A stretch of 64,000 nt of DNA. It comes from Bartonella henselae str. Houston-1 (lineage in GTDB: Bacteria; Pseudomonadota; Alphaproteobacteria; Rhizobiales; Rhizobiaceae). The stretch is taken from positions 1,833,001-1,897,000 of the forward strand of contig NC_005956.1 in the NCBI RefSeq assembly GCF_000046705.1, written 5' to 3'. The stretch's first letter is position 1. Every line of letters starts with the position of its first letter. Below, piece by piece: positions 16,015 to 61,587 of the stretch. The notes beneath the pieces are model-generated. The model saw only the letters and a list, made by a program, of their open reading frames with translations, was not told where the DNA came from and did not search any database. A program made the position numbers and the translations under genes.

Positions 16015-16150
16015 TAACAAACCAACCAAAGCAGCATCCGAGAACGCACCGCGCCGTCGGATGTTGACCTCTGAGATCTCTTTATACCCTTATTACACTG
16101 GGGTCTCAGTCGGTGGCTCCAAGTTAATTTTGTCACTGAAAGCTTGCCCT
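16015..16150 (-). promoter_or_regulatory. Structured 5' leader of ffh
   Basis: Between the carbonic anhydrase stop and ffh, two stable inverted repeats are visible. One is CATCCGA/TCGGATG around a GC-rich loop (about 16034-16060). The other is CTGAGA/TCTCAG around a loop of about 27 nt (about 16071-16109), flanked by the complementary bits GAGCCACCGA and AGGTC. The region is richer in GC than the other spacers, which suggests a selected RNA. I could not match it to a riboswitch or small RNA family I know. Confidence 0.4.
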
Positions 16151-41543: not shown

Positions 41544-42476
41544 TTACGTGCTTTCTTTAGAAACACTTTGACGTCCAAAATCAGGAGCATCAATTTCCTG
41601 CCCTGCCTCAATGATATTACGGCGAACAGCACGCGTACGCGTAAAAAAATTAAACAGTGTCTCCCCATCTCCCATACGAATTGCTTGTTCTAAAAAAGAA
41701 AGTCCTTCACTAAAACGGTTCAACATTTCTAAAATAGCATCCTTATTATGCAAACAAATATCGCGCCACATAACGGGATCAGAAGAAGCCAAACGGGTAA
41801 AATCACGAAAACCTGAAGCGGAATAAGCAATAACTTCTGAATTCGTCACCTTTTCTAAATCACTCGCCGTTCCAACAGTATTATAAGCAATTAAATGCGG
41901 CAAATGAGAAACAATAGCCAAAACAAGGTCATGATGTTTAGCATCCATCTTCTCAACACGCGCACCACAAGCTTCCCAAAATGCTGTCAATTGCGCTACA
42001 GCTCCAGCATCACTTTCAGCCAAAGGCGTTAAAATACACCAACGATTCATAAACAAATCAGCAAAACCAGCATCCGGTCCTGAATATTCTGTTCCAGCAA
42101 TCGGATGACCAGGAATAAAATGAACTGTTTTTGGCAATAAAGGTGCCATTTCTGCAATAACCAACGCTTTTGTAGAACCAACATCACTCACAATCGCTCC
42201 AGGTTTTAAATGATCATGAAGTGATTTTGCCACTTGCGCACTGGCTCCTACAGGAACAGAAAGAATAACCAAATCGGCTCCTTCAACAGCTTCTGCCTTA
42301 TCCGTGGTATAAAAATCCCCAAGTTGCAATTCGCGTGCTCTTATCAGCGTTTCTTGACGACGCGTTGCAATAGAAATATGAGCCGCAAGATTATTCTTTT
42401 TAATGACTCTTGCTAAAGAAGACCCAATCAGACCGATTCCAATGAGTGCTATTTTTTCAAACTGAACATCGAGCAT
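41544..42476 (-). CDS. tyrC: Prephenate/arogenate dehydrogenase
   Basis: A 310-residue NAD(P)-dependent dehydrogenase of the TyrA/TyrC family, for the oxidative decarboxylation step of tyrosine synthesis. It has the Rossmann motif IALIGIGLIGSSLA (9-22), then DVGSTKA (about 97-103) and HFIPGHPIAGTEYSG (117-131) with the catalytic histidine. HLPHLIAYNTVG and GFRDFTRLASSDPVMWRDI complete the signature. It uses prephenate made by the chorismate mutase at 14 kb. The hisC aminotransferase that precedes it in many relatives is absent from the upstream spacer. Confidence 0.92.
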   Translation of the reverse strand: MLDVQFEKIALIGIGLIGSSLARVIKKNNLAAHISIATRRQETLIRARELQLGDFYTTDKAEAVEGADLVILSVPVGASAQVAKSLHDHLKPGAIVSDVGSTKALVIAEMAPLLPKTVHFIPGHPIAGTEYSGPDAGFADLFMNRWCILTPLAESDAGAVAQLTAFWEACGARVEKMDAKHHDLVLAIVSHLPHLIAYNTVGTASDLEKVTNSEVIAYSASGFRDFTRLASSDPVMWRDICLHNKDAILEMLNRFSEGLSFLEQAIRMGDGETLFNFFTRTRAVRRNIIEAGQEIDAPDFGRQSVSKEST

Positions 42477-43042
42477 TTTTTACCTTTAAAAACTCTTTGA
42501 AAACAATAACAAAGCCACAAGTGGTCTCTTGTTTATTCAAGAGTTATGTATCAAACATTTAAAAAACCACAACCGACAAAAGAAAATGGAATAATAAAAT
42601 CATGCGCCTCCCAATCATCATCTGCGCAAGCTAGTAACAGATTCCTTTTATTTGGAAAATGTACTTCCAAATGAGTGATAAAACGTAACATCAAACTCTA
42701 AATTTTTTAATTCATTGCTTACAAGCATGCGTCACTGCATAAAATACAAATGCTTTTCATAAATTTTCAATCAATAATAATAACCACTTTGCAAAAAATA
42801 CCACCAGTTTTATTCCAAAAAATTCTCTAGAATGTAAGAAAATACCAAGCCTTTTTGGCAAAATCTTAGAATTATATCGTTTAAAAATCCTAAGGTGATG
42901 ATAATTAAAACAATTTTTTACATTCTGGAAATTTCTTTAAACACTCGTGCAAAAAGATACCGTGATTCTAAAAACATTTTTTTCTTCACTACGATGCTAT
43001 AAATCAAGCAAATATGAGGAAAATTCACTTTTCCAACCAAGT
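42477..43042. other. Spacer between holA and tyrC
   Basis: About 560 nt of AT-rich DNA without a supported gene, RNA or repeat. It should contain the tyrC promoter on the minus strand. Confidence 0.4.
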
Positions 43043-60375: not shown

Positions 60376-60403
60376 TTGAATATAATTGATTCGTTTTTAT
60401 ACT
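60376..60403 (+). promoter_or_regulatory. Promoter of the split tRNA-Arg
   Basis: TTGAAT (60376-60381) and TATACT (60398-60403) are 16 nt apart and end 26 nt before the tRNA 5' end. This is a good sigma70-type match in the right place. Confidence 0.6.
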
Positions 60404-60429: not shown

Positions 60430-60738
60430 GTCTGCGTAGCTCAGTAGGATAGAGCACAGGATTCCTAAAGAAATTGGGCGCCTTAAGGAGAAATCCTCAA
60501 AGTGGATCTGCTCAAATTCGGGGAAAGCTTCATAGGAGACGAAAACTATATGCCAATCCCGAGCCAAACCTCTCTTGAAAGAGGAGGAAGGTGTAGAGAC
60601 TGAACGGGCAGCACCTAAAGAGCATACGCTTTACGGTGAAGAGACAGTCCAGACCACAAACAGCTTATAAAGCTGGCGGTGAAAATCGAAGTGGTATGAA
60701 TCCTGGGGCCGCAGGTTCGAATCCTGCCGTAGACACCA
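60430..60738 (+). tRNA. tRNA-Arg (CCT) interrupted by an intron
   Basis: Two exons form one tRNA: 60430-60466 (37 nt) and 60699-60738 (40 nt). Joined, acceptor GTCTGCG pairs with CGTAGAC, and the D arm GCTC/GAGC is present. The anticodon stem CAGGA/TCCTG encloses loop TTCCTAA with anticodon CCT (60464-60466). The T arm GCAGG/CCTGC carries TTCGAAT, and CCA is encoded. The exon junction falls directly after the anticodon. tRNA-Arg(CCU) is a known host of group I introns in alphaproteobacteria (first described in Agrobacterium). Simple tRNA scans can miss it. Confidence 0.93.
60467..60698 (+). ncRNA. Group I self-splicing intron
   Basis: A 232-nt intron inside the anticodon loop. The upstream exon ends in U and the intron ends in G, as group I introns require. 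The conserved core is visible. The R-like element GTGTAGAGACTGAACGGGCA (60591-60610) and the S-like element GAGACAGTCCAGACC (60641-60655) pair in P7 (GACT 60598-60601 with AGTC 60646-60649). The P/Q-like region is around CCAATCCCGAGCCAAACC. No endonuclease frame fits inside, so it is a minimal intron. Confidence 0.9.
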
Positions 60739-60781
60739 TCGTATCAGTCAAATTATTCTTTCTGCTCAGTGAGGAAGCATT

Positions 60782-61177
60782 ATGAAAAAAACTTTACACA
60801 TTTTAGGATTTTTCGCCGCTTTAAATTTATCACTCTTTAGCTCAAACAATGCCTTCTCTGGTTCTTTAATCATTGAAGTTCCAGATGATCCAGAACCAAC
60901 AACTCAGACCATTGCCTATGAGTGTAAAGCCGGAACCAATAAAAAACGTGTTGAAGCAATCTATCTAAATGCTGACAATATTTCGTTAGTTGATTTCAAA
61001 TGGAACAATGATCGCATTATCGCCACCAAAATCATTTCTAATATGGGAATAAAATATGCAGGAGCTCAGTATATATGGTGGAAGAAAAATAACGAAGTCA
61101 CACTTTATGATCTTTTGGATGATCCAGAGGAAAAAAAACCTATACTCTGTACAGATGAATCAATCTTATTATTCTAA
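60782..61177 (+). CDS. MliC/PliC-like lysozyme inhibitor, copy 1
   Basis: A 131-residue exported protein with a signal peptide (about 1-26, ending NNAFS). The MliC-type domain has a first cysteine in YECKAG, the SNMGIKYAGAQYIWWKK core (compare the family's ASGARY...WWxKG) and a last cysteine in PILC, likely a disulfide pair. No lipobox cysteine is seen, so it should be soluble in the periplasm. The family inhibits c-type lysozyme, which would suit a host-associated bacterium. The start follows GAGGAAGCATT. A close paralogue follows after 17 nt. Confidence 0.82.
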   Translation: MKKTLHILGFFAALNLSLFSSNNAFSGSLIIEVPDDPEPTTQTIAYECKAGTNKKRVEAIYLNADNISLVDFKWNNDRIIATKIISNMGIKYAGAQYIWWKKNNEVTLYDLLDDPEEKKPILCTDESILLF

Positions 61178-61194
61178 ACAACTCAGGAAATATT

Positions 61195-61587
61195 ATGAAA
61201 AAACAACCTTTTAATGTACGATTTTTCGTCGCTTTAAGTTTATCACTCTTCGGTTCAATCAATGCCTTTGCGAATTCCTTAATCATTCAGGTTCCAGATG
61301 ATCCAGAACCAACAACTCAGACCATTTTCTATCAATGCGATATGGGAACAGTTAAAGAGCGTGTTGAAGCAACCTATCACACTGCTGGTACTATTGCGCT
61401 TGTTGATTTAAAATGGAAAGATAAGCGCATCATTGGTTCCAATGTCATTGCTGCTTCTGGAGCAAAATATGTAGGAAGCGAATATATTTGGTGGGCAACC
61501 AAAAACGAAGTCATACTTTATGATCTCATTAATGATCCTAAAGAAGAAAAACCCATCCACTGTGTAGAAGAAAAAAGCACAGAGTAA
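61195..61587 (+). CDS. MliC/PliC-like lysozyme inhibitor, copy 2
   Basis: A 130-residue paralogue of the upstream gene: same signal peptide type (ending SINAFA), then the shared SLIIQVPDDPEPTTQTI, YQCDMG, AASGAKYVGSEYIWWATKNE and PIHC. The ASGAKY/WW core is closer to the family consensus than in copy 1, so this copy may be the better-preserved inhibitor. The start follows AGGAAATATT. Its stop is 17 nt before the convergent mnhG stop. Confidence 0.84.
   Translation: MKKQPFNVRFFVALSLSLFGSINAFANSLIIQVPDDPEPTTQTIFYQCDMGTVKERVEATYHTAGTIALVDLKWKDKRIIGSNVIAASGAKYVGSEYIWWATKNEVILYDLINDPKEEKPIHCVEEKSTE

Follow-up and report, generated by a model that had tools for sequence, protein, structure and literature searches.

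A group I intron in the anticodon loop of the tRNA-Arg(CCU) gene of Bartonella henselae Houston-1, present throughout the sampled genus and patchy elsewhere in the family

Introduction

Does the tRNA-Arg(CCU) gene of Bartonella henselae Houston-1 carry a group I intron in its anticodon loop, and is there anything special about the retention of such an intron in this genome? The question arises from a preliminary description of the window, the 64,000-nucleotide stretch of DNA analysed here, which had recognized two tRNA exons separated by a minimal intron, and had regarded both its retention and its splicing as worth testing.

Introns of alphaproteobacterial tRNA-Arg(CCU) genes were initially described from Agrobacterium tumefaciens (Reinhold-Hurek and Shub, 1992; Paquin et al., 1999, as cited in PMC7717549), and the site is, as had been supposed, a known insertion site in this class. 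PMC7717549 itself describes BbgpI, the tRNA-Arg(CCU) intron of Bartonella bacilliformis, which was first noticed through its high expression across conditions, is spliced in vivo and self-splices in vitro, and the host gene of which, at c42404-42711, was unannotated. The amplicon sizes given there, 308 bp for DNA and 76 bp for the spliced product, imply that the BbgpI intron would be 232 nt long, the same length as the intron in the window. With ortholog and unannotated gene in print, a split tRNA-Arg(CCU) gene of this kind is already known, and the call for a splicing test is out of date for the genus.

The split gene and its detection

A tRNA finder with intron option, the check that the preliminary description had proposed, calls a split tRNA-Arg(cct) composed of the following features (window coordinates).

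60430..60738, + strand: tRNA-Arg(CCU) gene, split by an intron (ARAGORN -i)
60430..60466, + strand: 5' exon, with the anticodon CCT at its end (ARAGORN -i)
60467..60698, + strand: group I intron, 232 nt, last base G (ARAGORN -i, RF00028, covariation)
60699..60738, + strand: 3' exon, CCA encoded (ARAGORN -i)

Upon removal of the 232-nt insert the exons give a full tRNA-Arg cloverleaf with the anticodon CCU, the intron sitting directly 3' of the anticodon (junction ttcct/aatcc; ARAGORN -i), and the bounds proposed beforehand prove exact to the base. As described, the insertion point is preceded by U and the 3'-terminal base of the intron is G. The anticodon cct resulted from 9 of 540 trial exon joins, which include the 232-base excision slid by a few bases, and it is the U.G pair at the splice site together with the terminal G that fixes the bounds at 60467-60698 among these alternatives. 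Dinucleotide shuffles of the window (n = 20) gave no intron-bearing tRNA call (ARAGORN -i).

The group I identity is borne out by the covariance model Intron_gpI (RF00028), which matches 60454-60663 on the + strand with 55 bits versus a cut-off of 50 (E 3.3e-11, whole window) and which has one match in the whole single-contig genome (1.93 Mb). Among the open reading frames overlapping 60430-60738 on either strand, compared by length, the longest has 56 aa, so that no endonuclease appears to be encoded there; the intron is minimal, as had been stated, and lacks the intron-encoded endonuclease by which a homing intron is defined.

On the same strand, aroB (Pfam DHQ_synthase) is situated upstream of the split gene, which is itself followed by two tandem + strand genes (60782-61177 and 61195-61587) that both match Pfam MliC (lysozyme inhibitor). 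Elsewhere in the window, a match to the ffh small RNA is located at 16027-16078 on the - strand (RF01793, 50.4 bits). Two candidates were rejected: an HPnc0260 match on the - strand (60704-60836), which spans the 3' end of the tRNA and downstream sequence and reaches 33 bits, below the cut-off of 59, and a promoter-like pair at 60376-60403, which is no evidence of a promoter, as 2 such pairs were found versus 1.0 expected.

Scanned without the intron option, the window yields tRNA-Gly(gcc) only and the tRNA-Arg(CCU) gene is missed, which is what had been anticipated for intron-blind annotation. A further tRNA-Arg(CCU) elsewhere, which would have spoken against the reading, was not found: in the genome-wide search with the joined exons full identity occurs only at these two exons, the next best places reaching at most 83%, and no second copy is among the 37 uninterrupted tRNAs found, a list that does not cover everything, with 8 of the 158 candidates of the first look unscored and Ile-GAU and Ala-UGC missing. 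The uninterrupted tRNA-Arg genes found in the genome read ACG, CCG and UCU.

Fold and covariation of the intron

A P1-P9 fold was drawn by hand from the window sequence and then counted on 51 aligned pre-tRNAs, hand-picked from the genus (36 of 61 sequences) and from the confirmed sequences of the remaining family (15 of 23).

60472..60478, + strand: internal guide AATTGGG, invariant in 51/51
60479..60504, + strand: P2 with GAAA loop, both sides change in 8/9 pairs
60508..60513, + strand: 5' strand of P3 (partner 60606-60611), 100% of cells paired
60517..60522, + strand: 5' strand of P4 (partner 60558-60563), 94.4% of cells paired
60598..60602, + strand: R element, 5' strand of P7 with the guanosine site (partner 60645-60649), paired in 51/51
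60612..60638, + strand: P8, 77.7% of cells paired
60645..60649, + strand: S element, 3' strand of P7 (fold count)
60654..60694, + strand: P9 with P9a and P9b, both sides change in 10/14 pairs

The group I core P3-P9, with the pairing of R and S in P7 that had been described, is present in the window intron. Across the 51 sequences the whole fold is paired in 94.4% of cells, a value that falls to 31.0-43.8% when the partners are slid, although this comparison favours the fold, since it was derived from one of the aligned sequences, that of the window. Changes on both sides occur in 42 of the 89 pairs versus a shuffle mean of 27.4, and in none of 500 shuffles does any of five measures of the fold come up to what was observed. 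Weaker places are the closing pair of P4, broken in 17/51 sequences, and the distal part of P8, which fails in many relatives (33/51 and 35/51 at two pairs). P7 is constant and P1 changes on just one of its strands, so that neither helix can be tested by covariation of these sequences.

In P1 the GGG of the guide pairs with the exon CCU, leaving a U.G pair at the 5' splice site which is found in 51/51 sequences (alignment columns 37/52). The exon end TTCCT is invariant in all 51 aligned relatives, as is the final base of the intron (G269 of the gene) in the alignment. A point against the group I reading is that the guide pairs with no more than three bases of the exon. By eye, a candidate P10 can be drawn between the AUU of the guide and the 3' exon AAU and, GGG-CCU and AUU-AAU taken together, the guide matches the spliced anticodon loop.

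The tRNA-Ile(CAU) intron of Azoarcus, of subgroup IC3, is likewise compact and ORF-less with a GAAA loop on P2; it shares this plan with the window intron, while tRNA and lineage differ.

Occurrence in the genus Bartonella

A split tRNA-Arg(cct) with an intron of 220-278 nt is called in 61/61 sampled genomes of the genus (ARAGORN -i), and the retention of the intron, held to be noteworthy in this genome, is therefore not special to it. RF00028 with fast filters finds the intron in 60 of the 61 genomes, above the cut-off in 51. The genome missed, G033 (L105 151-459), has its exons 230 bases apart and is called as a split tRNA by ARAGORN -i, which is a warning for covariance-model censuses.

In the same-genus genome G051, taken as B. 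bacilliformis, the split gene (42403-42709, minus strand) nearly coincides with the BbgpI locus given in PMC7717549, and it is 93% identical to the window gene over 300 aligned columns with 16 gap columns; its intron is 230 nt long by ARAGORN versus 232 nt in the window. BbgpI and the window intron share genus, host gene, insertion site and the lack of annotation of the gene, but they belong to different species, and splicing has been demonstrated for BbgpI, whereas for the Houston-1 strain we infer it from orthology with B. bacilliformis.

Over 25 of the 31 flanked loci of the genus, the six that lack a long aroB match being set aside, intron distances and aroB distances correlate with r = 0.90, a value reached in 0 of 5000 permutations and a correlation expected from vertical descent. 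Beside the split tRNA, aroB gives either no match or a partial one in six of the 31 flanked loci (L002, L004, L005, L006, L008 and L015), which may reflect decay of the aroB gene in some species.

Occurrence in the family and on plasmids

Among 199 family genomes, three of them from the genus, 33 show a match at E <= 1e-12, which in G122, G128 and G254 covers the intron alone. Among the other matches, the split tRNA-Arg(cct) was confirmed by ARAGORN -i at 26 loci, three within the genus. Outside the genus this amounts to 23/196 genomes, which is a lower bound, as diverged introns may fall short of the blast threshold. In G139 (L152) the match is partial, and ARAGORN -i found no tRNA there. Intron relatives from the family's other genera are 72-78% identical over exon-intron-exon, and members of the alphaproteobacterial tRNA-Arg(CCU) family are alike in the host tRNA and the flanking CCT, as PMC7717549 has it.

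A 5' exon pattern ending in TCCTAA, compatible with intron-bearing and intronless genes, is present in at least 178/199 family genomes, and the tRNA-Arg(CCU) site is uninterrupted at 26/26 loci in 25 genomes chosen non-randomly. At one locus (L162) ARAGORN called a tRNA-Val intron, which was judged spurious, the CCU gene there being uninterrupted. The widespread pattern and the intronless loci indicate that, outside the genus, the insertion target is frequent and the intron occurs patchily, in contrast to its presence in 61/61 genomes sampled within.

Other group I introns came to light on the way. Three further family genomes with intron-only matches (L155, L156 and L157) possess a tRNA-Leu(taa) gene split by a group I intron of 204-216 nt; tRNA-Leu(UAA) introns have a related core but reside in another tRNA with another anticodon. 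Among 72,556 plasmid records, 1271 match the split gene of the window, each with an identity between 60 and 80%. The three plasmid loci examined (L032 2948-3246, L033 and L034; for example pCTX-M3, NC_004464.2) hold an intron-split tRNA gene near aac(3)-IId. The RF00028 match of the plasmid intron is 36.8 bits, below the cut-off of 50, and the host gene, with its long variable arm, is read as tRNA-Leu(UAA), the label given by ARAGORN being tRNA-Stop(tta). No report attributable to the plasmid intron by title or abstract was found.

A split tRNA-Lys-like gene in Gordonia phage Daredevil

A search of distant DNA with the pre-tRNA matched 2 of 50,697 records, both of Gordonia phage Daredevil.

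1843-2154 of locus L035, NC_048021.1: tRNA-Lys(UUU)-like gene, unannotated, interrupted by a group I-like intron of 238 nt (ARAGORN -i)

The cloverleaf has 7/7 acceptor pairs formed, the 3' exon matches mycobacteriophage records, several of them annotated as tRNA-Lys, at 87.5%, and the gene is situated near an integrase gene. One intron-bearing call arose in 200 two-base-block shuffles of the locus (4109 bases). The P4, P7 and P9 strings are by eye similar to those of the window intron; RF00028 gives nothing at E 0.1 and a weak 15.4 bits (E 0.18) in another search. Daredevil has been reported to be without a tRNA of its own, yet to integrate at the host tRNA-Lys-TTT (PMC10865867). The split gene may have been overlooked in that work, where the word "intron" appears a single time, among the references; literature searches brought up no title or abstract that describes the phage intron. 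The clear plaques of Daredevil would also fit the tRNA not being made. In an uncultured phage (LR756511.1, 595 kb; L184 801-898) about 100 bases match the Daredevil intron region at 78.8%, and ARAGORN -i found no tRNA in the 1698 bases around the match.

Discussion

The best explanation of the locus, to which we assign a probability of about 0.96, is a bacterial group I intron of the ordinary kind that sits in an anticodon loop, an ortholog of BbgpI and of the introns in alphaproteobacterial tRNA-Arg(CCU) genes. Its anatomy, its covariation, its orthology and the uninterrupted sites in relatives have been demonstrated here. The P10 step and the chemistry we infer from the pathway established for group I introns. 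The precursor would fold with the exon CCU on the guide GGG (P1) and U.G at the splice site, and guanosine bound in P7 would cut after the U at 60466; the 3' exon would then align on the guide through its AAU (P10), and the freed 5' exon would attack after the last G (60698), whereby the exons would be joined to tRNA-Arg(CCU) and the intron released. Within the genus, the intron would be inherited with the chromosome.

Selection might in addition have kept the intron as a regulatory step, acting through the splicing rate or the free intron RNA, beyond a merely tolerated insert. Occurrence in every sampled genus genome, against 23/196 confirmed others in the family, and the high expression through which BbgpI attracted attention (PMC7717549) lend this some colour; but neither a regulatory partner nor splicing that depends on conditions is known, and common descent accounts equally well for the fixation if the intron has no efficient way of being lost exactly, so that we consider it improbable.

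Still less probable is a decayed, inefficiently spliced intron that has left the tRNA-Arg(CCU) gene dead. A tRNA-Arg(UCU) can read AGG by wobble. The presence of a tRNA-Arg(tct) gene in the genome would make the loss tolerable, and the covariance-model score barely exceeds its cut-off, but the strands of the core are intact, as are the two splice sites, the exons retain a full cloverleaf, and an ortholog 93% identical splices (PMC7717549). A chance pair of tRNA-like sequences or a protein-spliced intron, for which no supporting point was found, can practically be dismissed in view of the Rfam group I match, the 0/20 shuffles, the covariation and an ortholog that self-splices in vitro (PMC7717549).

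As an ordinary group I intron orthologous to BbgpI, the locus is a clean example of an intron-split tRNA gene invisible to a standard scan. The practical lesson is to use the intron option when scanning for tRNAs, the same option having revealed the tRNA-Lys-like gene of the phage. With respect to the biology of the genus, there is a slim chance that the intron, devoid of an endonuclease, has been domesticated across Bartonella as a part of tRNA-Arg(CCU) expression, its splicing or the abundant free RNA tuning AGG decoding or another process; if true, this would explain its presence in all 61 genomes while most family genomes sampled showed no sign of it. The genus-wide presence needs no more than fixation of an intron that is not efficiently lost in an exact manner, and what emerges is a ribozyme intron found throughout the sample of one genus and patchy in the remaining family.
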